The notes beneath the pieces are model-generated. The model did no database searches and was not told where the DNA came from. It saw only the letters and a program-made list of their open reading frames with translations. The translations under genes and the position numbers were made by a program. DNA of 48,883 nucleotides from Acidisphaera sp. S103 (GTDB taxonomy: Bacteria > Pseudomonadota > Alphaproteobacteria > Acetobacterales > Acetobacteraceae): the NCBI RefSeq assembly GCF_009765975.1, contig NZ_LMUJ01000051.1, positions 269,887 to 318,769 on the forward strand, read 5' to 3'. Below, one piece after another: positions 13,599-45,377 of the stretch. The stretch's first letter is position 1, and each line of letters starts with the position of its first letter.

Positions 13599-13976
13599 GA
13601 CGAAAGTCTATGATACTTTGGTGTTGGTCCGCGGCGCATCGCATCAGGCGTGGCCGCTCGTGCCGCTGATACCATAGTATCGGCAATACCATCGTCCAAT
13701 AGTTTCATCGGCACCTTCCTGCTGTCATCGCATCTGTGCTTCCGTCTTCGGGTCAATCACAACAGAGCAGGAGTATGGCAATGCCTGCAGCAGTATCGTC
13801 GCCGATCGGGCGACCGTCATTGATCGATCTCCTTGTGCGCGACTGGCAACAACGAAGTGGGTCGCAGTGCCATGTTTAACGACGTTTGCGCCACCGGCGC
13901 GTCGCCACCCGCGATGTCTCAATCGGCGCGGTGGGCGCTCAGCCCGACCGAAAAATTCAGCAGCGGGAGCGCCGCC
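13599..13976. promoter_or_regulatory. Divergent promoter region of kinase and STAND regulator
   Basis: The 378 bases between the divergent kinase and regulator genes must hold both promoters. A partly symmetric GATACCATAGTATC lies near 13668, and a related TATGATACTTTGG at 13608, which could be binding sites of one of the two regulators. No -35/-10 pair is clear enough to be given. In-frame ATGs upstream of 13977 (13833, 13872) would extend the regulator but lack its conserved start. Confidence 0.35.
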
Positions 13977-15461
13977 ATGTCGGAACTGGGGCCAAACCTG
14001 GTCTACGAGTCTGGCCGATGGCGGTTTCACCTTGGGCGGCGTGAGTTGTACGCATGCGGTGTCCCGGTGCCCATCGGTGCCCGCGCGTTCGAAATCATGT
14101 CGGTCCTTGTCCAGTCGGCCAATGAACTGGTCGCCAAGGACACGTTGATGGATCGCATATGGCCGGGCGGGATTGTTGGAGAGAATACGTTGCACGTTCA
14201 CATCGCTGCGATCCGGAAGGCCCTCGGCCGGGATCGAGCCATGCTGAACACGGTCTCCGGCCGCGGTTTTCGGCTGCTTGGCGAATGGGCTGTCCGGCGA
14301 GAGATCGCTCCCAGGGAGCCGGCGGGCCTCAAATACGCACGAATTCCGGCCAGGACGTTCCAGACGAATGTGCCTGATACGGCGGTCAACCTTATTGGCC
14401 GAACCAACGAGGTGAGACATATCCTGGATGTTTTATCATCATCTCGGGCGATCACCCTGACGGGTCCCGGTGGGATCGGCAAAACCACGCTGGCGCTGCA
14501 CGTTTCCCGCTGCATTCGCCCCACGTTCGAGGGCGATATCTGGCTTGTCGAGTTTGCCGCATTAGCCGATCCAAACCTGGTGCCAGCGGCGGTGGCGGAC
14601 GTCCTTGGCCTGGATCCGGGTGGCAATGAAATGACCGCCGAGGCCGTCGCCCGAGCCATCGGAAATAGGCCGCTGCTACTGGTTCTCGACAATTGCGAGC
14701 ACGTCATCGACGCAACGGCCCGGCTGGTGGAAACGGTGCTTCGCCTGTGTCCGCGTACGACCGTGCTGGCGACCAGCCAGGAACCGCTGCAGATCGCCGG
14801 TGAATATGTCTGCCGGGTTCCGCCGCTGGAGATACCGCGGCAGCACGAGGCCGAACCGGAAGACCTTCTGGCATTCAGTGCGGTGCAATTGTTTGTCGCC
14901 GGGCTACAGGCGTCGGATTCGGCCTTCGTGGCGAGCCGGGAGGCCGTTTACTTGATCGCCGTCATTTGCCGGCATCTGGACGGGATCCCGCTCGCGATTG
15001 AGTTCGCCGCCGCGCGCGCCGCCACGCTTGGGGTCGAACAGGTCGCCGCCGGCCTGCGCAATCGCTTCGCGCTGCTGACCAGGGGGCGTCGCACGGCGGC
15101 GCCCCGGCACCGCACGCTGCGCGCGACGCTCGACTGGAGCTATGAGCTGCTGCCTGAGCCGGAACGCCTGCTGTTGCGCCGTTTGGCGATCTTTGCCGGC
15201 GGATTCACGCTGGAGGGGGCGACCGCCGTCATGGGCGATACCGGTTACCCCGCGTCGGCGGTTCTGGAAGGCATCGCGAATCTTGTCGCGAAATCGTTCC
15301 TGAGTCTGGATCAATCGTCGTCCGGAACCCGGTGGGCGCTGCCTGAGACGATCAGAACCTATGCTTTGGAGAAACTGGTGGAGAGTGGGGACGCTGATAC
15401 GACTGGTCACCGCAATACATCCGTCCACCAAGCCTCTACCCAATCACTCTCCAACCCTTAA
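13977..15461 (+). CDS. Winged-helix/STAND ATPase regulator, C-terminally truncated
   Basis: The protein (494 residues from the ATG preceded by GGGAG) starts with an OmpR-type winged helix (about 10-105, with GARAFEIMSVLV and GRGFRLL) followed by a STAND/NB-ARC-like ATPase: P-loop GPGGIGKTT near 160, Walker B LLLVLDNCEH, and GIPLAIEFAAARA. Relatives normally run to 900 residues or more and end in TPR-like repeats that sense the signal. Here the reading stops soon after the ALEKLVESGD segment, and the last 20 or so residues have no likeness to the family. The break falls next to the ugpC remnant at 15461-15574, so a rearrangement has probably removed the sensor part. It could be non-functional, or a freed DNA-binding ATPase. 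Confidence 0.85.
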   Translation: MSELGPNLVYESGRWRFHLGRRELYACGVPVPIGARAFEIMSVLVQSANELVAKDTLMDRIWPGGIVGENTLHVHIAAIRKALGRDRAMLNTVSGRGFRLLGEWAVRREIAPREPAGLKYARIPARTFQTNVPDTAVNLIGRTNEVRHILDVLSSSRAITLTGPGGIGKTTLALHVSRCIRPTFEGDIWLVEFAALADPNLVPAAVADVLGLDPGGNEMTAEAVARAIGNRPLLLVLDNCEHVIDATARLVETVLRLCPRTTVLATSQEPLQIAGEYVCRVPPLEIPRQHEAEPEDLLAFSAVQLFVAGLQASDSAFVASREAVYLIAVICRHLDGIPLAIEFAAARAATLGVEQVAAGLRNRFALLTRGRRTAAPRHRTLRATLDWSYELLPEPERLLLRRLAIFAGGFTLEGATAVMGDTGYPASAVLEGIANLVAKSFLSLDQSSSGTRWALPETIRTYALEKLVESGDADTTGHRNTSVHQASTQSLSNP

Positions 15462-33553: not shown

Positions 33554-34318
33554 TCAGGTATTGTTGCCACCCGAACCGCCGAACAGTCCACCCAGCAGGC
33601 CGCCGACACCCACCGCCGCCACCCCACTGCCGGTCGTCGTCTCGGTCCGGCCGGGCAGGTAACGGCCGATCTCCTCCGCCAGGTTCAGGATCGGCATGCT
33701 CTGCAAGGCAATGTGGCCGGGTCCGGTCAACGTCGCCAGGAACAGCCCCTCCCCACCGAACAGCACATTCCGGAAACCGCGGACCATCTGGATGTCGAAC
33801 CCGACGGTCTGCGCCATCACCCCGACATGGCCGGCATGGACCAACAGCCGCTCGCCAGGGGCGAGGTCACGCTCCACCACCTCACCCGACAGGTCGAGGA
33901 ACACCGTCCCCGGCCCCGTGACCTTCTGCAGGATAAACCCCTCGCCGCCGAAAAATCCCGCGCCCAGGCGCTTCTGCCAGGCGATTTCCAGGCTCACCGA
34001 CCGTTCGGCGACCAGGAACGTCTCTTTGCGGCAGATCAGCGACTGACCGGGCGCCAGCGTGACCGGCATGATCGTGCCGGGAAACCGCGGCGCGAACGCG
34101 ACATGACCGTTGCCGCGCGCGGTGAACTCGGTGATGAAAAAGCTGCCGCCGCCGAAGCTGCGCGCCAGCCCGGCGAAAAAACCGCCGCCGGTGTTGGTGT
34201 TCATCTCGACGGCATCGTTCATCCAGCACATGCAGTTGGTCTGGCTGTAGACGACCTCACCCGGCATCAGATCGACCGCGACGGTCTGCATCAGCGTGCC
34301 GGTTATCGTGTATTGCAT
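33554..34318 (-). CDS. AIM24/TIGR00266-type protein
   Basis: The 254-residue protein matches the AIM24 (TIGR00266) family, a trimeric beta-barrel-like fold of unknown role: MPGEVVYSQTNCMCWMND, a Gly/Phe-rich FFAGLARSFGGGSFF, PGTIMPV and repeated GEGFILQKVTGPG / GEGLFLATLTGPG. A Gly-rich tail closes it. The start needs care: AAGGAGG touches the ATG at 34318 with no spacer, so an ATG a few codons upstream (34333-34336 region, reading MMGARRMQY) may be used instead. The gene is divergent from the MFS transporter at 34448. Confidence 0.9.
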   Translation of the reverse strand: MQYTITGTLMQTVAVDLMPGEVVYSQTNCMCWMNDAVEMNTNTGGGFFAGLARSFGGGSFFITEFTARGNGHVAFAPRFPGTIMPVTLAPGQSLICRKETFLVAERSVSLEIAWQKRLGAGFFGGEGFILQKVTGPGTVFLDLSGEVVERDLAPGERLLVHAGHVGVMAQTVGFDIQMVRGFRNVLFGGEGLFLATLTGPGHIALQSMPILNLAEEIGRYLPGRTETTTGSGVAAVGVGGLLGGLFGGSGGNNT

Positions 34319-34447
34319 CCTCCTTGCCCCCATCATTCGATCCAAATCCTGCATCGACCGATGCCGATTCGGACATGGACCTGTCAAGGCACGTCCCCTA
34401 TGGACCCCCCCATCGCGGTCAACGATGCCGCGCGCTCCACGAGGAAA

Positions 34448-35686
34448 ATGCCCATGACGACCCTGCAGGCTCGGTGGTGGCGGATCGGCGGCTCGCTGAT
34501 GGCGGGTCTGTTCGTCGCCTACCTGGATCGAACCAACCTTTCGGTGGCGATCCCCTCCGTCGCCAAGGATATGGGTTTCGCGGGCGCCAAATTCGCCGAG
34601 ACGTCCAGTTGGGCGCTGACGATCTTCCTGATCGGCTATGCCGTCGCCAACGTCCTGGGTGGCATCCTCACCCGCCAGATGGACCCGAAAATCGTGGTGA
34701 TCTGGACGTTCGCGCTGTGGTCGGTCGCCACCATCGTGGTGGGCGCGACGAGTTCGCTGATCGTGCTGCTGGTCTGCCGGCTGATTCTGGGCGTGGCGGA
34801 GGGCATCTACTGGCCGCAGCAATCGCGCTTCGCCCGATCGTGGTTCGCACCGGACGAACTGACCAGGGCCAATAGTGTCATTCAATACTATGGCCAATTC
34901 CTCGCCCTGGCCTTCGGTTTCATGGCGCTGACACCGATCTATCAGGCGTTCGGCTGGCGTATCCTGTTCTTCCTGACCGGCGGCCTGGGCCTAGTCGTCA
35001 TCGTCCCGCTCTACGCTGCCGTCCTGCGTCCGGAAACCGAGGCACCTTATCACGTCCCACTGGCTGACGTCGTCCAGCCACGCCTGACGCTGGCGGCGCT
35101 GGGCGGGGCGCCATTCCTGCTGCTGGTGTTCAGCTACATCACGCAAGGGATGCTGTTCTGGGGCGTCACGCTGTGGATTCCGCTGGCGGTGCGTTCCATC
35201 GGGTTCACCGGCACCAGCCAGGCGGTCGCCAGTTGCCTGCCTTATGTCGCGGCCGTCGTGCTCGCGGTGCCGATGGCGATCATCAGTGACCGGACCAAAA
35301 AGCGCGTGTTGATCGCTGCGCTGGGCCTGCTGATCCCCGGCATCCTGCTGCTGCTGTTGCCACAGTTTAGCAGCGGCTACGGCAAGCTGGCCCTGATCAC
35401 CGTCGCGCTGGGGTACTACGTCAGTAGCTACACGCCGAATATCTGGTCGATCCTGCAGGCCTCGGTGGAACCGTCGGCGGTCGGTTCGGCATCCGGGATC
35501 ATGAACGGGCTGGGCGCCGGCGGCGGAGGCACCATCGCCGGCTTCCTTGTGGGCATGCTGAACGCCGCCACGGGGTCGTATATGTCCGGGTTCATGGTCC
35601 TGGGCGGCCTGGTAATCCTGGGCGGGATCTCACTGCTGATCTACGGCCGGCTGAAGCAGCAACAATTAGCCGTCGCTGGCGGATAG
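34448..35686 (+). CDS. MFS transporter (ACS/phthalate-permease-like)
   Basis: This 412-residue transporter shows about twelve hydrophobic segments and the MFS start of the anion:cation symporter group (YLDRTNLSVAIPSVAKDMGF). The RFARSWFAPDELTRAN loop and the late YTPNIWSILQASVEPSAVGSASGIMNGLG segment fit that group, which carries organic acids such as hexuronates, tartrate or phthalate. The substrate is not known. GAGGAAA lies just before the ATG at 34448, which decides the start; upstream in-frame ATGs lack a site. It is convergent with the LysR gene, and the two coding regions overlap by 21 bases at their 3' ends. Confidence 0.9.
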   Translation: MPMTTLQARWWRIGGSLMAGLFVAYLDRTNLSVAIPSVAKDMGFAGAKFAETSSWALTIFLIGYAVANVLGGILTRQMDPKIVVIWTFALWSVATIVVGATSSLIVLLVCRLILGVAEGIYWPQQSRFARSWFAPDELTRANSVIQYYGQFLALAFGFMALTPIYQAFGWRILFFLTGGLGLVVIVPLYAAVLRPETEAPYHVPLADVVQPRLTLAALGGAPFLLLVFSYITQGMLFWGVTLWIPLAVRSIGFTGTSQAVASCLPYVAAVVLAVPMAIISDRTKKRVLIAALGLLIPGILLLLLPQFSSGYGKLALITVALGYYVSSYTPNIWSILQASVEPSAVGSASGIMNGLGAGGGGTIAGFLVGMLNAATGSYMSGFMVLGGLVILGGISLLIYGRLKQQQLAVAGG

Positions 35687-36574
35687 TTTCGGCAGCACCT
35701 TCTCGCGAAACGCCAGCAACGCGGGATTGTCCTTCCCGCGCCGCCAGATCAACTGCAACTCTGCCGGCGTGCGCGGCACCGGCCGCAAATCGCGCAAAAC
35801 CACCCCGCGCGCCAGCAGGTTGCCCGCCGACCTGGGCACCAGCGACACCCCCATCCCCGCACTGACCAAAGCCAGGATCGCATGGATCTGGCTAACATGC
35901 TGAACGAAGCGCGGGGTAATATTGGCCGTCCGAAACAAGCCTGTGGTCAGGTCGTGAAAATACCGCCCCTCGGTCGGCGCGTCCGCCGCATACATGATGA
36001 ACGGCACATGATCCAGGTCGCGCAGGCCTGGTGCCTCGCCCCGAGCCATCGGGTGATTCTCCGGCGCCGCCAGCACCAGTGGTTCGCGCAGCACGCACAC
36101 CAGTTCATTGCCGCGCCGGTCCACCGGCAACCGCACCAGCCCGGCATCCAGCCGGTCGGCGGCCAGCGCCTCCATCTGCCGAGCGGTGATCATCTCACGC
36201 AGCACCAGATCGACATCGGGCATTTCCGCGGTCGTCAGCGCCACCAATCGCGGCAGGAACCCGTAACTGGATCCGGCAGTGAACCCCAACGTGATGGATC
36301 CGGCCGCACCTTGCGCGACGCGCCGCGCCGCCACCGCCGCCCCCTCCGCCAACATCAGCATTTGCCGTGCCTCCGGCAAAAATGCTCTGCCGGCCTGAGT
36401 CAGTTGAACGGAACGGCTGGTGCGCTCAAACAAGGTGACGCCCAGATCGTGCTCCAGCAGTTGGATTTGTCGGCTCAGCGGCGGCTGCGTCATGTTCAGC
36501 CGCTGTGCTGCACGCCCGAAATGCAGGTTTTCCGCCACGGCGACAAAACAGCGAAGCTGGTTGAACTCAAACAT
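35666..36574 (-). CDS. LysR-family transcription regulator
   Basis: The 302-residue regulator has the LysR winged helix at residues 1-60 (FNQLRCFVAVAENLHFGRAAQRLNMTQPPLSRQI) and a two-lobed effector domain (about 88-300, starting GSITLGFT). It belongs to the group with aromatic-acid regulators of the CatR/BenM type by its LHFGRAA helix. The start is the ATG at 36574; the codon before is TTG. It points away from the MFS-dehydratase-RraA operon at 36897, with an inverted-repeat element in between, so it may control that operon or the convergent MFS gene; neither is shown. Confidence 0.93.
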   Translation of the reverse strand: MFEFNQLRCFVAVAENLHFGRAAQRLNMTQPPLSRQIQLLEHDLGVTLFERTSRSVQLTQAGRAFLPEARQMLMLAEGAAVAARRVAQGAAGSITLGFTAGSSYGFLPRLVALTTAEMPDVDLVLREMITARQMEALAADRLDAGLVRLPVDRRGNELVCVLREPLVLAAPENHPMARGEAPGLRDLDHVPFIMYAADAPTEGRYFHDLTTGLFRTANITPRFVQHVSQIHAILALVSAGMGVSLVPRSAGNLLARGVVLRDLRPVPRTPAELQLIWRRGKDNPALLAFREKVLPKLSASDG

Positions 36575-36658
36575 CAAGACCCATTTTAGATCGATCCATG
36601 CCGACTTTGGCTTGGACGAGACCTAATACCCTCCCTATGGTCCGCGCGCCATAACTGC

Positions 36659-36877
36659 TGGGTGAGGCAGGTAAGGCCAGGGGCTTTGCCCCTGGACCCC
36701 ATCAAAGGCACAGCCTTTGAAATCCATTCATTGGGTTTGGGGGGAGGAGGGCCAACACAGTCGTTGCAACATCGACGTCAGCCGTCCTCCCCCCAAACCC
36801 AAAGTAACGGTTCCAAGGGGCCTCGCCCCTTGGCGGGTCCAGGGCAGCGCCCTGGCCTTCCTTCCCTCACCCGCCCA
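36659..36877. repeat. Composite inverted-repeat element, about 219 bp
   Basis: The outer arms (36659-36700 and 36835-36877) are inverted copies of a GGGTGAGG...AAGGCCAGGGG..CCCCTGGACCC-type sequence, each able to fold by itself (CCAGGGGC/GCCCCTGG). An inner perfect 18-bp inverted repeat (TTGGGTTTGGGGGGAGGA) stands at 36731-36748 and 36785-36802. Smaller hairpins (AAAGGC/GCCTTT and CCAAGGGG/CCCCTTGG) fill the rest. It has no coding capacity and ends 20 bases before the MFS gene, so it looks like a MITE or composite REP element. Confidence 0.75.
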
Positions 36878-36896
36878 CAAAAATCCGGGAGTTTGA

Positions 36897-38258
36897 ATGT
36901 CGATCGCCATTGGCACAGCCGAACGCACGCGGGGCCGCATTCGTTTCACGATCGTCGCGATGCTGTTCGCGATCACGTTGGTGAATTACGCTGATCGGGC
37001 GACGCTCTCGATTACCGGCCCGGTCATTTCGAAAGACTTCGGCTTCACCTCGATCCAGATGGGCTTCATTTTCTCGGCGTTCGGCTGGTCATATGTGATC
37101 GGCCAGATCCCTGGCGGCTGGCTGCTGGACCGGTTCGGCTCGAAAGCGGTCTATTTCGGCAGTATCGTCACCTGGTCGTTCTTCACGCTTCTGCAAGGCG
37201 GTGTCTGGATCGTCGGCACCGTCGCGACCGTTTATGCACTGTTCGCCCTGCGCCTGCTGGTCGGCTTTGCCGAGGCACCATCCTTCCCGGCCAACGGGCG
37301 GATCGTCGCCGCCTGGTATCCCGCCAATGAACGGGGCACGGCGTCGGCCATTTTCAACTCGGCACAGTATTTCGCGACCGTGGTGTTCGCCCCGGTCATG
37401 GGCTTCATCACCGTCCGGTATGGCTGGCCCTATGTGTTCTTCTTCATGGGCGGACTAGGGATTCTCGCTGGCCTCGCGTGGCTGAAAATCATCTACAGCC
37501 CGAAACAGCACCCACGGCTACGCCCCGCTGAACTGGATTACATCGCCCAGGGCGGCGGGCTGGTGAACCTGGATCAGCCCGGGCAGCACGCCGCCCGCCA
37601 CGACGCGGCCTCACAGGTGGGATACCTGAAGCAACTGCTGCAAAGCCGCATGATGATCGGCATTTACCTCGGGCAGTTCTGCATCAACGCGATCACTTAC
37701 TTCTTCATCACCTGGTTTCCCGTCTACCTGGTGCAACAGCGCGGCATGTCCATCCTGCATGCCGGCCTGGTTGCCTCCGTCCCGGCGATCTGCGGCTTCA
37801 GCGGCGGTGTGCTGGGCGGCATCTGGTCCGACTTCCTTCTGCGCCGTGGCTGGTCGCTGACCGCGTCCCGCAAAATCCCCATCGTCGCCGGCATGCTGCT
37901 GTCGATGAGCATGATCGTCTGCAACTACACCGATGCCCAGTGGCTGGTGGTGGCGATCATGGCGCTGGCCTTCTTCGGCAAAGGCATCGGTGCCCTCGGC
38001 TGGGCGGTGATTTCCGATGCCGCGCCGAAGGAGGTCGCCGGTCTCAGTGGCGGTCTGTTCAACATGTTCGGCAATATCTCCTCCATCACCACGCCGATCA
38101 TCATCGGCTACATCCTGCACGCCACCGGATCGTTCAACGGCGCCCTGGTGTTCGTCGGAGCCAACGCCGCCGTGGCCATCCTGAGCTATGTCCTGGTGGT
38201 GGGAGACATCAAACGCCTGGAACTGAAGCCCCTATCCGGATTGGCGGGGCAACGATAA
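36897..38258 (+). CDS. MFS transporter, glucarate/galactarate (GudP) type
   Basis: The 453-residue transporter has twelve predicted helices and the ACS-family start (VNYADRATLSITGPVISKDFGF), DRFGSKAVYFGS and FPANGRIVAAWYPANERGTASA, all close to D-glucarate/galactarate and hexuronate transporters. It would import a sugar acid by proton symport. The dehydratase gene follows after 43 bases and the RraA-like gene after that, so uptake and first steps of breakdown are in one operon. The promoter must lie within or beside the inverted-repeat element that ends just upstream. Confidence 0.93.
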   Translation: MSIAIGTAERTRGRIRFTIVAMLFAITLVNYADRATLSITGPVISKDFGFTSIQMGFIFSAFGWSYVIGQIPGGWLLDRFGSKAVYFGSIVTWSFFTLLQGGVWIVGTVATVYALFALRLLVGFAEAPSFPANGRIVAAWYPANERGTASAIFNSAQYFATVVFAPVMGFITVRYGWPYVFFFMGGLGILAGLAWLKIIYSPKQHPRLRPAELDYIAQGGGLVNLDQPGQHAARHDAASQVGYLKQLLQSRMMIGIYLGQFCINAITYFFITWFPVYLVQQRGMSILHAGLVASVPAICGFSGGVLGGIWSDFLLRRGWSLTASRKIPIVAGMLLSMSMIVCNYTDAQWLVVAIMALAFFGKGIGALGWAVISDAAPKEVAGLSGGLFNMFGNISSITTPIIIGYILHATGSFNGALVFVGANAAVAILSYVLVVGDIKRLELKPLSGLAGQR

Positions 38259-38301
38259 ACCATTGACTACATTCAGCCTGCTTATCGGAGGATCCCTGAC
38301 C

Positions 38302-40059
38302 ATGCCCGACAGCCATACGCCACCATCCGCACAGAAATCGGCCGCGGACCTGCGCAGCGCCCGCTGGTTCGGCCCCGCCGATCTGCGATCCTTCGGCCAT
38401 CGGTCGCGCGCGATGCAGATGGGCTATTCGCCGGAGGAGTGGACGGGCAAGCCGGTGATCGCCATCGTCAACACCTGGTCCGACCTGCAGCCGTGCCATG
38501 CCCACTTCAAGCAGCGCGTGGACGACGTGAAGCGCGGCATCCTGATGGCCGGCGGTTTCCCGGTGGAACTGCCCGCATTGTCGGTGTCGGAAAGCTTCGT
38601 GAAGCCCACAACCATGATGTACCGCAACATGCTGGCGATGGAGACCGAGGAACTCCTCCGCTCCCATCCCGTGGATGGTGCCGTGCTGATGGGCGGCTGC
38701 GACAAGACCACGCCCGGCCTGCTGCTGGGTGCCACCAGCATGAACATCCCCACCATCTATCTGCCCGCCGGCCCCATGCTGCGCGGCAATTTCCAGGGCA
38801 AGTTCCTCGGGTCCGGCTCCGACAGCTGGAAATACTGGGATGAACTGCGCGCCGGCAAAATCACCGACAAGGAATGGCTGGGCGTCGAACAGGGCATCGC
38901 CCGCAGCTATGGCACCTGTATGACGATGGGCACCGCCAGCACCATGACCGCCATCGCCGAGGCCGTCGGCATGGTCCTGCCCGGCGGTTCCAGCGTCCCC
39001 GCCGCCGATGCCGGCCACATCCGCCTCGCATCGGAATCCGGCCGGCGCATCGTCGAGATGGTGTGGGAAGACCTGACCCCATCAAAGATCCAGACCCATC
39101 AGGCGTTCGAGAATGCGATCGCCGTCGCCATGGCGATGGGGTGTTCCACCAATGCCATCATCCATCTCATCGCGATGGCTCGCCGCGCCGGCCAGGATAT
39201 CGGGCTGGCCGACTTCGAGCACTACAGCCGCCGCGTCCCGGTGATCGGCAATGTCCGCCCCAGCGGCAGCCAGTATCTGATGGAGGATTTTTATTACGCC
39301 GGCGGCATCTGCGCCCTGATGAAGAATATCAGCCAGCATCTGCATCTGGACTGCCCCACCGTCAGCGGAAAAACCATCGGTGAGAACATCGAATCCGCGA
39401 AAGTCTTTAACGACGACGTCATCCGTTCGCTGGACAATCCGATCTACGGCGAGGGTTCGCTCGCCGTCCTGACCGGCAATCTCGCCCCCGACGGCTGCGT
39501 CATCAAGCCGGCGGCGATGGACCAGAAATTCCTGAAGCACTCCGGCCCCGCCGTGGTGTTCGACGATTACCCGTCGATGAAAAAGGCTGTGGACGACGAA
39601 ACCTATCCGTTCACCCCGGATCACGTCCTGGTGCTGCGCAACGCCGGCCCGCAGGGCGGCCCCGGCATGCCGGAATGGGGCATGCTGCCGATGCCGAAGA
39701 AGCTGCTGAAAGAAGGTTTCCGGGATATGCTGCGGCTGTCCGACGCCCGCATGTCCGGCACCAGCTACGGCGCCTGCGTGCTGCATGTGTCGCCCGAATC
39801 CTACATCGGCGGCCCTTTCGCCCTGCTGAAAACCGGCGACTTCGTCAGCGTCGACGTCGATGCCCGCAGCATCCGCATGGAAGTCTCCGACGAAGAACTG
39901 GCGCGCCGCCGAGCCGAATGGACTCCGCCGCCGGTGCGGTTCGAGCGCGGTTACGGCTGGGTGTTCACCAAGCACATCCAGCAGGCCGACAAAGGCTGCG
40001 ACTTCGACTTCCTGCGCACCGATTTCGGCGCGCCGGTTCCCGAACCAGTTATTTACTGA
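38302..40059 (+). CDS. IlvD/Edd-family dehydratase, sugar-acid type
   Basis: This 585-residue enzyme is an Fe-S dehydratase of the IlvD/Edd family. The cluster cysteines lie in DLQPCHAHF (about 74), MGGCDKTTPG (about 142) and YGTCMTMGTAST (about 214). The length and the FRSFGHRSRAMQMG-like start fit the L-arabinonate/D-xylonate dehydratase branch more than branched-chain IlvD. It would dehydrate an aldonic acid to a 2-keto-3-deoxy acid. GGAGG precedes the ATG at 38302. It lies between the GudP-type transporter and the RraA-like gene, which supports sugar-acid catabolism; the exact acid is unknown. Confidence 0.93.
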   Translation: MPDSHTPPSAQKSAADLRSARWFGPADLRSFGHRSRAMQMGYSPEEWTGKPVIAIVNTWSDLQPCHAHFKQRVDDVKRGILMAGGFPVELPALSVSESFVKPTTMMYRNMLAMETEELLRSHPVDGAVLMGGCDKTTPGLLLGATSMNIPTIYLPAGPMLRGNFQGKFLGSGSDSWKYWDELRAGKITDKEWLGVEQGIARSYGTCMTMGTASTMTAIAEAVGMVLPGGSSVPAADAGHIRLASESGRRIVEMVWEDLTPSKIQTHQAFENAIAVAMAMGCSTNAIIHLIAMARRAGQDIGLADFEHYSRRVPVIGNVRPSGSQYLMEDFYYAGGICALMKNISQHLHLDCPTVSGKTIGENIESAKVFNDDVIRSLDNPIYGEGSLAVLTGNLAPDGCVIKPAAMDQKFLKHSGPAVVFDDYPSMKKAVDDETYPFTPDHVLVLRNAGPQGGPGMPEWGMLPMPKKLLKEGFRDMLRLSDARMSGTSYGACVLHVSPESYIGGPFALLKTGDFVSVDVDARSIRMEVSDEELARRRAEWTPPPVRFERGYGWVFTKHIQQADKGCDFDFLRTDFGAPVPEPVIY

Positions 40060-40070
40060 GGAAACCACCG

Positions 40071-40787
40071 ATGTTGACCCCGGAGACCCGCGAGAAGCTG
40101 AAAGGCGTCAGCACCGCGACGCTGGCCAGCGCGCTGTACAAGCGCGGCCTGCGCAACCAGATGATCCAGGACGTCCGCCCGCTATCCGCCCCCAAGGGCG
40201 GCAGCATGGTCGGTGAAGCCTACACCCTGCGCTACATGCCCGCCCGCGAGGACCTGAATCCGATGACGGTGTTCCGCGACCATAGCCATCCGCAACGCCG
40301 CGCGGTGGAGGAATGCCCGCCCGGCGCCGTCCTGGTGATGGACAGCCGTAAGGACACACGGGCGGCCTCGGCCGGCGGGATCCTGGTCACACGGCTGATG
40401 GTGCGCGGTGTGGCCGGCGTGGTGACCGACGGCGGATTCCGCGATTCGGCCGAGATCGCCCAACTGGACATGCCCAGCTACCACAACCGCCCGTCCGCCC
40501 CGACCAACATCACGTTGCACCAGGCGATCGACATCAACGTGCCGATCGGCTGCGGCGAGGCCCCGGTGTTCCCCGGCGATATCGTGGTCGGCGATGCGGA
40601 CGGCGTGATCGTCATCCCGGCCGGCATCGTCGAGGAGATCACCGCCGACGCGGTCGAAATGACCGCCTATGAGGATTTCGTCACCGAACGCGTCCGCGCC
40701 GGGCAGAAGACGTTCGGCCTCTATCCGCCGACGGACCAAGCGAACCTCGACGCATTCGCTGTCTGGCGGAAGCAGCACGGACGCTGA
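40071..40787 (+). CDS. RraA-like aldolase/decarboxylase family protein
   Basis: The 238-residue protein is of the RraA/HMG-aldolase family: LKGVSTATLASALYKRG at the start, GGILVTRLMVRGVAGVVTDGGFRD with the conserved Arg-Asp of the active site, and PGDIVVGDADGVIVIP. Members include class II 4-hydroxy-4-methyl-2-oxoglutarate aldolase/oxaloacetate decarboxylase, and proteins that bind RNase E. Here, 11 bases after a sugar-acid dehydratase, the aldolase role on a keto-acid is much more likely. GAGGAAA lies before the ATG at 40071. A hairpin at 40890-40926 may end the operon. Confidence 0.9.
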   Translation: MLTPETREKLKGVSTATLASALYKRGLRNQMIQDVRPLSAPKGGSMVGEAYTLRYMPAREDLNPMTVFRDHSHPQRRAVEECPPGAVLVMDSRKDTRAASAGGILVTRLMVRGVAGVVTDGGFRDSAEIAQLDMPSYHNRPSAPTNITLHQAIDINVPIGCGEAPVFPGDIVVGDADGVIVIPAGIVEEITADAVEMTAYEDFVTERVRAGQKTFGLYPPTDQANLDAFAVWRKQHGR

Positions 40788-40889
40788 TATCGAACCGGGT
40801 CGCCCAACATCGCGGCCGGCCCGATCCATAAGGCCGCATCGGGTCCATTTTCTGCCGATGGGCGCCCCGTCATACTGACGAAGGTCGGT

Positions 40890-40926
40890 ATCCACGCCTT
40901 TTGTTCTATCAACCAAAGGCGTGGAT
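40890..40926. terminator. Hairpin downstream of the sugar-acid operon
   Basis: ATCCACGCCTTT and AAAGGCGTGGAT make a perfect 12-bp stem; inside, GTT/AAC can pair as well, leaving CTATC as loop. It lies 100 bases after the RraA-like gene and between convergent genes, so it can serve both. No T run follows. Confidence 0.65.
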
Positions 40927-41014
40927 GGTGAGCCTGCGCTCACCATGACGGCGAGAGGTCGGTGCGTCAGTCCGACTCACGCCTTCCGGCATTCAGCCCC
41001 CCGTTCAACCACGC

Positions 41015-42823
41015 TTAACGCACGCGGAAGAATACCACCCGCTTGCTTTCCTCCGCCTGTAGCTTGGTCCGGATACGCAACAGGTCCTTCCAGCCGATAT
41101 AGCCGATCAGTCGCGAGTCCTGCCGCGAGATCACCGGCATCTGAGCCACATTCGACAGCATCATCCGGTCGACGATCCCTTCCAGATACTCGTCGGGAAA
41201 AGCGGTCACCAGCTTCTGCCCCTCCAGCAGTTCCTTCAGCGTCGCCTGCCGGTGTTTGCCCGAGTGCCGCCAGCCCAGCACGGTCGGTGGATTGACGATC
41301 CCCAGCACGTGGCGATCCTCATCAAGCACCGGGAAGCTCGGGTGCTTCGTCTGCGGGCTCGAGAGGAAGGCGGCAACCTGATGCAGGGTCATGGTCTGCG
41401 GCAAGGTCTCCACTTCCGTCGCCATGACCTCCTCGACGCGGGTCAGCGTGAACGGATCGACGCGGTATTCGCGGGCCAGATGGTGGCCGCGCCGAGCGAC
41501 CTTCTCGGTCAGGATGGAGCGCTTCATCAGCAGCACCGTCACCAGATGCGCGGTGACACAGGCGGCGATCAACGGCAGCAGGACGTGCGTGTTGCCGGTC
41601 AGTTCCACCGCGAAGAACGTCGCGGTCAGCGGCGAGCGCATCGTGCCGCCCATGGTCGCGCACATCGCCAGCAGCGCCCAGAATCCCGGGCTGGCGACGG
41701 GCAGGATGTGGGTCAGCACCGCACCCAGGCCACCGCCCATGATCAGCAGCGGCGCCAGCACACCACCCGAGGTGCCGGACCCCAGCGCGACAGCCCAGAT
41801 GATCGCCTTCACCGACAGCAGCAGCATCGCCGAGGCCGGCAGCACGTGCCCTTGCAGCATATCGGCGATATTGACGTAGCCCACACCCAGCGCGCGCGGA
41901 TCGATCAGCCCGCCGATGCCGACCACCAGGCCGCCGATCATCGGCCACCACATCCAGTGGATCGGCAGCTTCAGGAATCCGTCTTCACACGCATAGACCA
42001 GCCGCGTCAGCACGCCGGACAGCAATCCGCTGACCAGGCCGACGAACATCCAGCACAGTAGCGCGATCAGCGAGATCTCCATGCCGCCCGAGAACGGGAA
42101 CAGCGGCGACGCCAGGCCAAGCGCATGGCGTTCCACCTCCGCGACGATGGCGGCGGCGGCGACCGGCACGAAACTGCGCGGCGTCCACTCGAACAACAGC
42201 AATTCCACCGCCAGCATGATCGCGGCGATCGGCGTGCCGAACACCGTTGTCATGCCGGCCGCGGCGCCCGCCACCAGCAACGTCTTGCGTTCGTTGTCGC
42301 TGACCGGCAGCAACTGCGCGATCAGCGAACCGATGGCGCCGCCGGTCATGATGATCGGTCCCTCGGCGCCGAACGGCCCACCACTGCCGATCGCGATGGC
42401 GGACGACAGCGGCTTCAGGATCGCGACCTTCCAATCCAGCCGGCTGCGGCCCAGAAGAATCGCCTCGATCGCCTCCGGAATGCCATGGCCGCGGATTTTC
42501 TCACTGCCGTAGCGCGCCATCAGCCCCACGATCAGCGCGCCGACCACCGGCACCCCCACCGCGAACAGACCCAGCGGCGAGTGGCCCAGATCCAGGTTCG
42601 CGGTCGTGAACCGCCCGAAATACGCCACGTTGGTGCACAGCTTGATCAGGTTCAGCAGCACGATGCCGGAGAAAACACCACCCGTGCCGACAACCACGGC
42701 GATCGCCGAGATCACCAGGACCCGCGGGTCGGTCGTGAAATCGCCCAGATGGCGTATTCGATCGCCCAAGGCATGATTGGTTGCGGCAGCGGACGCCGCC
42801 AGCGGCTTTGTGAGCTTCTTCAC
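41015..42823 (-). CDS. ClC-family chloride channel/antiporter with CBS domains
   Basis: The 602-residue protein has the ClC core with about ten or more hydrophobic segments and the motifs GSGGPFGAEGP (anion site, with the gating Glu kept), GMTTVFGTPIAAIMLAVEL and GSGTSGGVLAPLLIMGGGLG. Two CBS domains fill the last 140 residues (VMATEVETLPQ and the VDRMMLSNVAQMPVI segments) and may bind nucleotides. It moves Cl- across the inner membrane as channel or H+ exchanger. The start is taken as the GTG at 42823, with GGAAA in front; the ATG at 42901 would put the operator-like palindrome at 42872 inside the gene. It is divergent from the MarR gene. Confidence 0.9.
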   Translation of the reverse strand: MKKLTKPLAASAAATNHALGDRIRHLGDFTTDPRVLVISAIAVVVGTGGVFSGIVLLNLIKLCTNVAYFGRFTTANLDLGHSPLGLFAVGVPVVGALIVGLMARYGSEKIRGHGIPEAIEAILLGRSRLDWKVAILKPLSSAIAIGSGGPFGAEGPIIMTGGAIGSLIAQLLPVSDNERKTLLVAGAAAGMTTVFGTPIAAIMLAVELLLFEWTPRSFVPVAAAAIVAEVERHALGLASPLFPFSGGMEISLIALLCWMFVGLVSGLLSGVLTRLVYACEDGFLKLPIHWMWWPMIGGLVVGIGGLIDPRALGVGYVNIADMLQGHVLPASAMLLLSVKAIIWAVALGSGTSGGVLAPLLIMGGGLGAVLTHILPVASPGFWALLAMCATMGGTMRSPLTATFFAVELTGNTHVLLPLIAACVTAHLVTVLLMKRSILTEKVARRGHHLAREYRVDPFTLTRVEEVMATEVETLPQTMTLHQVAAFLSSPQTKHPSFPVLDEDRHVLGIVNPPTVLGWRHSGKHRQATLKELLEGQKLVTAFPDEYLEGIVDRMMLSNVAQMPVISRQDSRLIGYIGWKDLLRIRTKLQAEESKRVVFFRVR

Positions 42824-42871
42824 GTTGGTTTCCGTCTTTCGGAGAGTGGACCTGATGGTGCGGTGCGGGAT

Positions 42872-42892
42872 ATATATCGCATCACGATGTAT
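42872..42892. promoter_or_regulatory. Palindrome between ClC and MarR genes, candidate operator
   Basis: ATATATCG-CATCA-CGATGTAT is an inverted repeat of 8-base arms with one mismatch and a 5-base spacer. It lies 26 bases before the MarR start, in an A+T-rich spot suited to a promoter. MarR proteins often bind such sites and control themselves and the divergent gene. Confidence 0.5.
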
Positions 42893-42918
42893 AATCCGCA
42901 AGCCCTGGAGCTTCCGCC

Positions 42919-43413
42919 ATGACCCACCCCGCCCCCGAGCGGCAGGATGTCCAGAACGTCCCGCTGGACCGGCAGGACTATCGGATGCTGTCGGATTTTC
43001 GTTACGTGATCCGCCACTTCCTGAAATTCAGCCAGGATGCCGCGCAAGATCATGGCCTGACGACACGCCAGCATCAGGCGCTGCTGGCGATCAAGGGCTT
43101 TCCCGGCGACAACCCGCCCACCATCGGCGAACTGGCCGAACGCCTGGCGATCCAGCATCACAGCACGGTGGAACTGGTGGACCGCCTGGCGGAGGCACAG
43201 TTGATCCTGCGGACCCACGACACCGAAGACCGCCGCCGCGTCCTGCTCGGCCTCACCAAGGCCGCCGAGGACCACCTCGCCCGTTTATCGGCCAGTCATC
43301 TGGAGGAACTGCACAGGCTGCGCCCGACGCTGCAACGCATCCTCGATCAGGTCGGCAAATGGTCGGAGGGTGGGGATCGGGTCGAAACCGATGGTGCTGC
43401 CGGAGGGGATTGA
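42919..43413 (+). CDS. MarR-family transcription regulator
   Basis: The 164-residue protein has a MarR winged helix: GLTTRQHQALLAIKGF, PTIGELAERLAIQHHSTVELVDRLAEAQLI (recognition helix) and the wing THDTEDRRRVLLGLT, with dimer helices at both ends. It would bind a palindrome, probably the one at 42872-42892, and regulate the ClC gene and itself in answer to a small molecule. Its last seven codons and the stop lie in the 44-bp copy of the tRNA-Thr 3' half (43392-43435), so its C-terminus was set by the tRNA sequence. Confidence 0.93.
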   Translation: MTHPAPERQDVQNVPLDRQDYRMLSDFRYVIRHFLKFSQDAAQDHGLTTRQHQALLAIKGFPGDNPPTIGELAERLAIQHHSTVELVDRLAEAQLILRTHDTEDRRRVLLGLTKAAEDHLARLSASHLEELHRLRPTLQRILDQVGKWSEGGDRVETDGAAGGD

Positions 43414-43435
43414 ACTCTCGACCTCCCCCTTACCA
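43392..43435. other. Attachment-site repeat (copy of tRNA-Thr 3' half)
   Basis: These 44 bases are identical to 45303-45346, the 3' half of tRNA-Thr from the CCA end through the anticodon region. The flanks differ at once on both sides (TTACCG after it; AGGGGG in the true tRNA). It has no 5' half and cannot make a tRNA. It marks the far end of an inserted element. Confidence 0.9.
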
Positions 43436-43778
43436 TTACCGAGGGAGATAGCTGAACTCGCCCGTTTTTAAGGCTAACCATGCTTCGCGAATAACTTCCG
43501 GGAGACCGGAACAAAACATAAATTTCGGATTGAAACTGTGCAGTTATTTCGGTCTCCGTGAGCCGGAGCGGGTAATCAGCTGCGGAAGCTGTCGGCGCCA
43601 GCTTTGGGCAAACGATTCTGGCTAGGATTGACGCCCGACGCGACGAGTGGCAACTTGTCGTATCGATCCGACCTCTTAACGTCCAAACGAACATGCCATC
43701 CAGGGCTCCCTACGGGACCGTCATACGCCCGGCTTTCCCACCTCGTGCGGCTCGGTTGACCAGCTCGCGGCGGCAACA
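43436..43778. promoter_or_regulatory. Leader region of the mini-island with inverted repeat
   Basis: No gene is supported in these 343 bases. GGAGACCGGAACAAAAC at 43501 and its near-inverse GTTATTTCGGTCTCC ending at 43557 form an inverted repeat about 26 bases apart. This may be an operator, a fold in the transcript, or a recombinase arm site. The promoter of the two island genes should lie here. Confidence 0.4.
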
Positions 43779-44300
43779 ATGACCGTTCCTGGCCAACCAA
43801 AGCGCGCGTTTCAGCCGCTCCTCCCCCCTGGACGTCACTACATGACGATGGCTGCGCTCGAGGAACTGACGGTCAAGCGCTTCCCTGCGTCGATCGTCCG
43901 CCCTGCCATCTTCTCCGAGTTCCGGCGTCTAGTGACCGATCTCATCACTACTGGCATCGTGGGCGAGATTTGGACGGACGGCAGCTTTCTGACCGAAAAA
44001 GCCGAACCGGAGGTAGACGATATGGACCTATCCGTTCGAGTGACAGTGGAGCATTTCGAGACCCACCCGCTTCCGGTCAGACAAAGGCTATTGTACGCTC
44101 TGGGAGGCGGAAAGCGATACAGTCCGGTTTTAGATACCTATATCACGGTGATATTCCCCAAAGGCGACCCACGGGTCCATGGGGGAACCGACGATTATTG
44201 GGCCGAAAAGTGGCTGATGGGATGGGATGACAAGCTGAAAGGCTTCGCCGTGATTCTGCTTGGAGAAACCGACCTGGGATTCCAGCTCCATGCTCGTTGA
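43779..44300 (+). CDS. Nucleotidyltransferase-like protein (DUF6932-like) of the mini-island
   Basis: The 173-residue protein has a LLPPGRH start, a helix with FRRLVTDLI, and then IWTDGSFLT...EPEVDDMDLSV. This is the nucleotidyltransferase-fold signature: a Gly-Ser pair followed by a D-x-D (DMD), as in small MNT-type and DUF6932-like proteins. A third acidic residue may be the Asp in LDTYITVIF. It would transfer a nucleotide to a protein or RNA, or bind one; the target is unknown. The start at 43779 keeps the conserved LPPG segment; an ATG at 43842 would lose it. Its stop overlaps the next gene by 11 bases. Similar enzymes act as toxins or antitoxins in two-gene modules. Confidence 0.8.
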   Translation: MTVPGQPKRAFQPLLPPGRHYMTMAALEELTVKRFPASIVRPAIFSEFRRLVTDLITTGIVGEIWTDGSFLTEKAEPEVDDMDLSVRVTVEHFETHPLPVRQRLLYALGGGKRYSPVLDTYITVIFPKGDPRVHGGTDDYWAEKWLMGWDDKLKGFAVILLGETDLGFQLHAR

Positions 44301-45210
44301 CCGCATCCGGCGCGTCTACGAGGAGATAACTAAGGTCGAGCGTGTTGCTGCCCAATTCCCCGATGACATCTACATTCAAGCCAATCTCAATTCGCTACGC
44401 TACGACGCCCAGGAACTTGAGCACGAGTGGGCAGAAGAAACTCGACTGGCGCAGAAAGAGGTCTGCCGGTATCGCATGATACCGTCATATATCGGTCAAT
44501 ACTCAATCCGGGCAGTGACTCAGTCGCTGCTGGATTTTCAGGAGCTCTTTTCGCAGATCTACGATGCCATCAAAAATGGGGCTAAAAAGCAGGCGCGTTT
44601 AGCCGCCGAGATGGTGGAGCAGACCAAGTTCAACTTGGCGTTCACCTACCCTGGTTCGCTGGGCGTCGCCATGTCGGTCGACAGCACGCCGGATCTATTC
44701 AATGGTCCATTCGACGAAGCGATCGATGCCGTGATGCAAGTCGTAGATGCCCAAGATGAGCACGATGTTCGCGATATGGCCAAGGCGCTCGGTGAAGCGG
44801 TGGTGAAGCGAGCGTATGACTGGGCTCGCATCAACTCCTATGCCAACTACGCTGTGGACCTGGACTGGACCACGCTGAAAGGCACTCGCAAAGGCGGAAT
44901 GATAGATGTGACTGCATTCAGTCGGCTCGTCAGCGTCATCGACCACACCTCCGATTCCATCATCAAACCTATCAAGGTTCGCGGCGTCCTTGTGGGCTTA
45001 GATTCAAGGACGAAGCGCTTCCGTTTCGTAGACCCGGACGGAGACGATTATGCAGGGCCGCTGTCCGAGATATTCCCAGCTGGCGCAGTTTGGCAGGTGA
45101 ATGAAACATACATCGCGGACATCGAGGTAGAGGAAACAGTGGAGTACGCTACCGACGCCACAAGACACATCAACCGGCTGAAACATCTTGAACCTGCGCC
45201 CAAGAGCTGA
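44290..45210 (+). CDS. Unknown partner protein of the mini-island
   Basis: I do not recognise this 306-residue protein. The first 130 residues look helical, with a coiled-coil-like start (IRRVYEEITKVERVAAQ) and ELFSQIYDAIKNGAKKQARLAAEM. The middle is mixed and includes a VDAQDEHDVRDMAKALGEAVVKRAYDWARIN helix. The last 100 residues are beta-rich (VRGVLVGLDSRTKRFRFVDPDGDDYAG), which could be a small barrel. No membrane segment is seen. The ATG at 44290 lies in the last codons of the nucleotidyltransferase-like gene (11-base overlap), so the two are translated together; a TTG at 44260 is less likely. A role as immunity partner, target adaptor or sensor of the first protein is inferred. Confidence 0.75.
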   Translation: MLVDRIRRVYEEITKVERVAAQFPDDIYIQANLNSLRYDAQELEHEWAEETRLAQKEVCRYRMIPSYIGQYSIRAVTQSLLDFQELFSQIYDAIKNGAKKQARLAAEMVEQTKFNLAFTYPGSLGVAMSVDSTPDLFNGPFDEAIDAVMQVVDAQDEHDVRDMAKALGEAVVKRAYDWARINSYANYAVDLDWTTLKGTRKGGMIDVTAFSRLVSVIDHTSDSIIKPIKVRGVLVGLDSRTKRFRFVDPDGDDYAGPLSEIFPAGAVWQVNETYIADIEVEETVEYATDATRHINRLKHLEPAPKS

Positions 45211-45302
45211 CGGCCACTCCCGCAGCTGCGTCCGACGTTTCCGGGCAATTGGAACCCATCCCTGTTGGCCGCCCGAAACACGCCGAAAGCGCTTAAAAAG
45301 AC

Positions 45303-45377
45303 TGGTGCTGCCGGAGGGGATTGAACTCTCGACCTCCCCCTTACCAAGGGGGTGCTCTACCACTGAGCTACGGCAGC
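45303..45377 (-). tRNA. tRNA-Thr (GGT anticodon)
   Basis: A 75-nt tRNA with encoded CCA. The acceptor stem pairs GCTGCCG with CGGCAGC; the anticodon stem CCCCC/GGGGG holds the loop TTGGTAA, giving GGT; the T loop is GTTCAATCC. It reads threonine ACC/ACT. The 3' half is repeated at 43392-43435, at the other end of the mini-island. Confidence 0.96.

Follow-up and report, generated by a model that had tools for sequence, protein, structure and literature searches.

Defence systems often lie inside large islands or prophages. Such surroundings blur which part was transferred, and at what time. The same tRNA gene of two congeners is the site of short units treated here, each with one defence-type system and no visible means of moving. 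We describe one of these, a two-gene unit of 1.9 kb (the M63 unit) between direct repeats at tRNA-Thr(GGT) of Acidisphaera sp. S103, on a 48,883-nucleotide stretch of contig NZ_LMUJ01000051.1 (positions 269,887 to 318,769, forward strand; 'the window' means this whole stretch). Its closest described counterparts are cis-mobilizable elements (CIMEs), defined as decayed integrative and conjugative elements (ICEs) or integrative and mobilizable elements (IMEs) (PMC5704250, PMC7563491). According to the available excerpts of these reports, classical CIMEs of Streptococcus salivarius measure 1.2-13 kb, those of S. agalactiae lie at the 3' end of tRNA-Lys, alone or in accretion, and the S. salivarius study could detect CIMEs only in tandem with ICEs or IMEs (PMC5704250, PMC7563491). 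Like a CIME, the M63 unit is flanked by attachment (att) sites, has no integrase or transfer genes and consists of cargo only. Unlike one, it has no ICE or IME relic or tandem partner that we could find, and its whole cargo is one candidate defence pair.

Two further systems bear comparison. Tycheposon cargo also adjoins a tRNA gene, but Tycheposons, as excerpted, span 4-200 kb and carry a tyrosine recombinase (PMC10872708), whereas none was found in the 1.9-kb M63 unit. Both genes of the unit match PADLOC models of PDC-M63 and are adjacent; the published Escherichia coli pair, in the excerpt of its report, resides in a prophage, whereas here the pair stands alone between att repeats. Searches of open-licence literature, judged by titles and the beginnings of abstracts, gave no paper on integrase-less islands at tRNA-Thr with a single defence system.

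Direct repeats and the unit between them

The intact tRNA-Thr(GGT), which we regard as the integration target, occupies 45303-45377 on the minus strand (ARAGORN). Its last 44 bases out of 75, running from the anticodon loop to the encoded CCA and making up slightly more than the 3' half, are present twice with 44/44 bases identical, both times on the minus strand: as the near att copy within the tRNA gene (45303-45346) and as a far copy, a truncated 3' end of tRNA-Thr, at 43392-43435. A scan of the whole 8,370,829-base genome at up to 3 mismatches returned these two copies in total, and when the 1.2-kb flanks on either side of the gene pair were compared, the runner-up exact repeat measured 12 bp, equal to the 95th percentile of 200 shuffles. 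The insert lies on the 3' side of the intact tRNA gene with the truncated copy at its far end, and this is the geometry of integration into a tRNA gene. Thus the first-pass annotation was right that exact 44-bp repeats flank the locus, one of them within an intact tRNA-Thr(GGT), and the scattering through the genome that would have spoken against an insertion was not seen. Its further claim, delivery by site-specific recombination at the tRNA 3' end, is borne out by this anatomy and by the use of the same site by other elements in relatives.

The far copy reads C at two positions, 10 and 35, at which T stands in 15 of 16 intact tRNAs of relatives (the exception is G009; G, C and L numbers denote genomes, contigs and loci of our comparison, with the present genome as G000); further partial exceptions are G024 (at 35) and G028 (at 10). 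The tRNA-Thr of the window carries compensating changes at 70 and 49, with pairing assigned by eye. As the far copy shares both C residues, the att core of the element would have matched the allele of this host. Because the far copy is under no tRNA constraint and is nonetheless identical, the M63 unit is, judged by this identity, a young insertion.

Between the repeats lie 1867 bp (43436-45302; 1911 bp with one repeat copy) with a GC content of 56.0%, against 61.5% for the window. Two overlapping open reading frames (ORFs) on the plus strand fill the unit, at 43779-44300 and 44290-45210 with an overlap of 11 bp, and their GC3 is 0.65 for both, compared with 0.75-0.91 for 16 other genes of the window. 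The left end, 343 bp at 43436-43778, is non-coding and contains an imperfect inverted repeat (43501-43514 and 43544-43557). A folded single-strand end at this position was considered and rejected (z -0.27), and a promoter scan of the unit found no promoter.

No integrase was found. Hidden Markov model (HMM) searches of window ORFs of at least 90 aa, across 48.9 kb, gave 0 matches to tyrosine recombinases, with no model search for serine recombinases, and likewise showed no tandem partner element with a tyrosine recombinase in the window. Searching the unit by tblastn with 23 integrase queries, including a few duplicates, revealed no integrase remnant at E<=0.1, while the same search found one in the island of G083, used as a control. 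Neither unit gene matches a recombinase or transfer family in library scans, no separate search for relaxase or conjugation relics having been made. Measured against the ICE or IME descent by which CIMEs are defined, there is therefore neither an integrase remnant nor a parent element in view. A unit of two overlapping genes and nothing else, lacking an integrase, was what the first-pass annotation had described, and both parts of that description hold.

The M63A and M63B proteins

PADLOC (PADLOC-DB 2.0.0) names the two genes, adjacent and overlapping with A before B, PDC-M63A and PDC-M63B, the score for B being modest. M63A (43779-44300, plus strand) encodes a DUF6932 protein of 173 aa (PF22014, 1.1e-14; PDC-M63A, 1.4e-18); translation could also start at an inner ATG (43842), as it does in several relatives in the protein collection. 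The residues G68-S69-x11-D81-x-D83 are invariant in 16/16 aligned sequences, and D119 is nearly so in a 12-row alignment. We take G-S-x11-D-x-D to be the signature of pol-beta-type nucleotidyltransferases, and presumably that of the minimal nucleotidyltransferases (MNTs) by name. An AlphaFold model built on the 12-row alignment (mean pLDDT 80.1) gave 18 top Foldseek rows that are all nucleotidyltransferases or complexes with one, at a best E of 0.03; they include AadA/AAD(9), CD-NTases, the MNT of MntA-HepT and of MNT-HEPN, and Pol mu. On motif and model, we propose that M63A is nucleotidyltransferase-like. The likeness to MntA-HepT and CD-NTase systems lies in this predicted fold and signature beside a partner gene, as fold neighbours only, with weak scores.

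M63B (44290-45210, plus strand; PDC-M63B, 1.5e-11) is a partner of 306 aa with no Pfam family above cut-off. Its model (pLDDT 89.9) has a helical hairpin at the N-terminus, an alpha/beta core and, at the C-terminus, a barrel. The Foldseek matches are partial (E>=0.013), none covers the whole protein well, and among other proteins they include RPA, CST, ExoVII and IF1; as we take these four to be OB-fold proteins, the modelled barrel bears a weak resemblance to OB folds. A HEPN partner for M63A was rejected, and here the pair departs from MNT-HEPN systems: across 42 sequences M63B has no histidine among the invariant or nearly invariant columns, and no HEPN entry appears in the best 50 of 908 Foldseek rows. 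A profile match leads to DUF6575, by way of one weak plasmid match of M63B, in Oscillatoria. Residues 66-303 match 154-402 of this plasmid DUF6575 protein (hhalign 97.8%, 9.4e-13), mostly outside its Pfam DUF6575 stretch (1-181). The protein, at L151 3488-4702, has a C-terminal part homologous to M63B and so links PDC-M63B to DUF6575 proteins. As excerpted, a functional-selection study counts DUF6575 among domains newly tied to phage defence (PMC9519451).

NCBIfam held nothing above cut-off for either protein. PHROGs families of unknown function match M63A and M63B (7.5e-16 and 0.0013), and therefore phage relatives exist; M63B itself was found neither in viral contigs nor, by tblastn at E<=1e-3, in the phage collection. 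Mechanistically, M63A as a pol-beta-type nucleotidyltransferase might modify M63B or a nucleic acid and so control M63B as effector, an arrangement that would resemble other nucleotidyltransferase-based immune or toxin-antitoxin pairs. 'Defence' is, for both proteins, a candidate label at the level of the family. The idea of compact defence-like cargo thus keeps the support of the PADLOC match to PDC-M63A/B, while defence activity itself stays at candidate level.

The pair is patchily spread. M63B was found in none of 58 relatives searched, so relatives that always carry the pair here without repeats, which would have argued against an insertion, were not encountered. It occurs in 4 of 397 genomes of the family, G000 included, and in 1/385 of a class sample, which is G000 itself; in a collection of genome contigs a single-protein query gave none and an alignment query gave 4 loci. 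For M63B the protein collection lists 53 proteins, counting the query, one of them labelled as from a Rhodopila metagenome-assembled genome (Acetobacteraceae), a genus to which the present genome may be close. We looked at seven other M63 loci and tested six for exact repeats in 1.2-kb flanks. Other genes flank the pair in these loci; in L145 it adjoins a methyltransferase, and transposase-like genes are nearby in L129 and L130, L129 carrying a B-like gene alone rather than the full pair. With neighbours named by eye, the pair is an isolated insert among ribosomal-protein-like genes in L127 (9505-10942) and between recA-like and alaS-like genes in L128 (9505-10918), in both cases without att-type repeats. 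M63 pairs as habitual tRNA-att cargo were rejected: among the six loci just L128 exceeds the shuffle 95th percentile, with 14 bp that fall within flanking ORFs. ARAGORN calls a tRNA-Leu next to the L147 pair; this call overlaps a coding ORF, and we regard it as false.

tRNA-Thr as an integration site in relatives

A second congener, G018, carries an island of 3357 bp at tRNA-Thr (L037, G018:C166, 901-4332), with a truncated tRNA copy identical over 48 bp and three genes: a type II restriction endonuclease (PADLOC 2.5e-124), a C5 methyltransferase (1.8e-176) and Vsr (3.4e-25). Neither an integrase nor a remnant of one was found in it. G020 (L049), 91-92% identical in the aligned pieces, aligns to both sides of this island, the alignments of the two sides sharing 52 bp at the tRNA. 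Judged by this alignment, G020 is a clean empty site and insertion of the G018 island is proven. With the M63 unit, the G018 island makes two cases of integrase-less, defence-only islands at one tRNA gene, a recurrent pattern of greater interest than a single case would be. Occupied and empty, G018 and G020 are a ready pair for comparison, and the window offers an isolated PDC-M63 pair for probing the candidate function.

tRNA-Thr is a real integration site in relatives. Truncated copies occur in 17 of 397 family genomes, G000 included, by a degenerate exact pattern; this is a lower bound, since the pattern misses other variants and T at one position. Twelve islands have both ends on one contig (11 of the 17, plus G018 from the genus search), and an integrase was found in seven of them (G218, G217, G163, G279, G090, G117 and G110) and in neither G000 nor G018. 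Nine islands in other genomes are longer, at 5.7-40 kb: the seven with an integrase and two partly read ones, G349 and G147, where 20 kb read of 27.6 and 37.7 kb contained none. The island of G083 (2145 bp; L131 3409-5553) is decayed, with an N-terminal integrase stub and, by eye, transposase-like genes. Six further islands are one-ended; an integrase is present in G255, G118 and G384, and none was seen in the part read of G203, G254 and G334. G003 and G015 carry integrase-bearing elements at tRNA-Thr, and the sequence adjoining the tRNA of G001 matches the flank of the G003 element. The integrases at this tRNA fall into at least two families, G003/G015/G118/G255 at 47-58% identity and G163/G217/G218/G090 at 38-76%.

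Some of these islands have arm-type repeats, namely a 22-bp repeat in both ends of G003 and TGCTAGGACTATGCTAG-like repeats in G083, G163, G217 and G218; short end repeats were seen in L131, L132, L133, L138, L047 and L038. These are perhaps arm sites of the integrases. Some individual loci deserve mention. In L039 (G015:C254, 9358-10506) the integrase gene of a region that looks prophage-like by eye overlaps the truncated tRNA-Thr copy. The G003 element has a FitA-like/PIN toxin-antitoxin-type pair and an SNF2-type helicase at its far end (L038, G003:C17, 1-2476), beside the truncated copy. A second integrase gene just past the far copy in L139 (G279, 13059-14192) suggests two elements in tandem. 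In L040 (G032:C251, 8912-8958) a truncated tRNA-Thr copy that has diverged (85%) lies close to the end of a contig and is perhaps an old scar.

Origin of the unit and its left flank

We give an even chance to a decay-leaning reading in which the unit is young, non-autonomous and flanked by att sites and behaves as a CIME does, and we lean slightly towards an integrase lost after arrival over arrival as cargo only. A recombinase that we infer would have joined an element with its own copy of the tRNA-Thr 3' end to the host tRNA by an exchange within the anticodon loop; recombination would have restored the tRNA and left the truncated copy at the far end, a course that the anatomy and the parallel G018/G020 case support. 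What remained would be one two-gene candidate defence system with no integrase, transfer genes or visible arm sites. Renewed movement would come about only if a tRNA-Thr integrase acted on both att sites, supplied by an incoming element or by one integrating alongside. The G083 island demonstrates that decay at tRNA-Thr does occur, which supports the CIME-like reading, and published CIMEs include some as small as this unit.

Several observations weigh against it. The GC content of the unit is low without being extreme (40 of 433 windows are equally low), and the leftover junk of a larger element, often expected in a deletion remnant and present in G083, is missing. The arm-type repeats of integrase-bearing islands (three motifs tested) are absent from the G000 and G018 units. 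Comparison of tRNA-Thr in relatives, proposed in the first-pass annotation, yielded other cargo and a clean empty site for the parallel G018 island, but none for this exact junction, and no relative read has this left flank beside tRNA-Thr. The left flank ends in a CLC-like/MarR-like gene pair whose six other loci in the genus show no tRNA-Thr end in the stretch covered, with a 20-bp match to another tRNA part in L057. The six other M63 loci tested have no flanking att-type repeats, and therefore this mode of movement is not a requirement for the pair. As to the cargo, neither M63A nor M63B has a Foldseek match at E<=0.001, and when PDC-M63AB was deleted from a prophage of E. coli NILS69, a study with 10 phages, as excerpted, obtained no evidence for defence (PMC12409345).

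A rather unlikely but serious alternative is that a two-gene circle with attP arrived as cargo only, integrated in trans by an enzyme that another element encoded, such as a tRNA-Thr integrase of the G003/G015 or G163/G218 family. It would account for two integrase-less islands in one genus, each being one complete defence-type system and little else, for the lack of an integrase remnant in the G000 or G018 island, and for the identity of the repeats, over 44 and 48 bases, which indicates a young age. Suitable enzymes are at hand, as relatives of the G003 integrase (E<=1e-10) occur in 13/33 genomes of the genus, two shown beside a tRNA-Thr end, and the family has further tRNA-Thr integrases. 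However, the arm-type sites of two integrase families are found in neither G000 nor G018, and no two related mini-islands turned up that would prove repeated transfer. Nor is there a close integrase in this genome: G000 has 25 tyrosine recombinase matches, 24 above cut-off, but no homologue of the G003 tRNA-Thr integrase at E<=1e-10. A resident integrase acting in trans was accordingly rejected, for want of a close homologue, with 21 of the 25 places compared and a best identity of 23-28%.

We hold somewhat more doubtful the broader idea that cargo-only defence cassettes dock at tRNA-Thr(GGT) in this genus, where small circles with one complete defence system and a tRNA-derived att core would be integrated in trans by the integrases that other elements bring to this tRNA, PDC-M63 and type II restriction-modification with Vsr being alternative cassettes of one slot. 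If such units do move in trans, they would represent a minimal and largely uncounted route for defence genes, which integrase-based searches would miss.

Replacement by homologous recombination is improbable; here the truncated copy would stem from an older island, and exchange with an M63AB-bearing donor would later have renewed what lay between the copies. It fits the varied content of tRNA-Thr, a site used repeatedly, and a left flank that is rearranged relative to readable relatives, but it requires a donor with the same arrangement and so merely moves the question, and the 44/44 identity of a copy free of tRNA constraint points to a recent event. Most improbable of all is the view that there is no mobile unit, and that chance or faulty assembly put a partial tRNA copy near unrelated genes: although the genome is a draft (116 contigs, 8.37 Mb) and no empty site was found for this junction, both copies lie within one 394,704-bp contig, the longest other repeat across the same flanks is 12 bp, G018 and G020 provide occupied and empty sites in parallel, and the codon usage of M63A and M63B deviates.

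Beside the CIME-like unit that we favour, the flank deserves description of its own. The MarR-like gene, so named by eye, lies at 42919-43413 on the plus strand with its stop codon inside the far repeat copy, and is paired with the CLC-like gene at 41015-42901. On the other side, tRNA-Thr adjoins the same ABC-transporter genes as here in G023, G010, G012 and G015 (in G015 with a partial tRNA on the contig), and the left side differs from the window in 3/3 of those relatives where it is readable; G010 has no second tRNA-Thr copy within 16 kb. A longer tandem extending to the left was rejected, as the region around 33.6 kb shows no remnant of tRNA-Thr. Genes resembling those of the window at 32.7-33.5 kb are some 0.6 kb away from tRNA-Thr in G012, and therefore the stretch at 33.6-43.4 kb is extra or moved in G000. 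This stretch (33554-43391, about 9.8 kb) is a larger rearrangement beside the mini-island, with the CLC-like/MarR-like pair at its right end.

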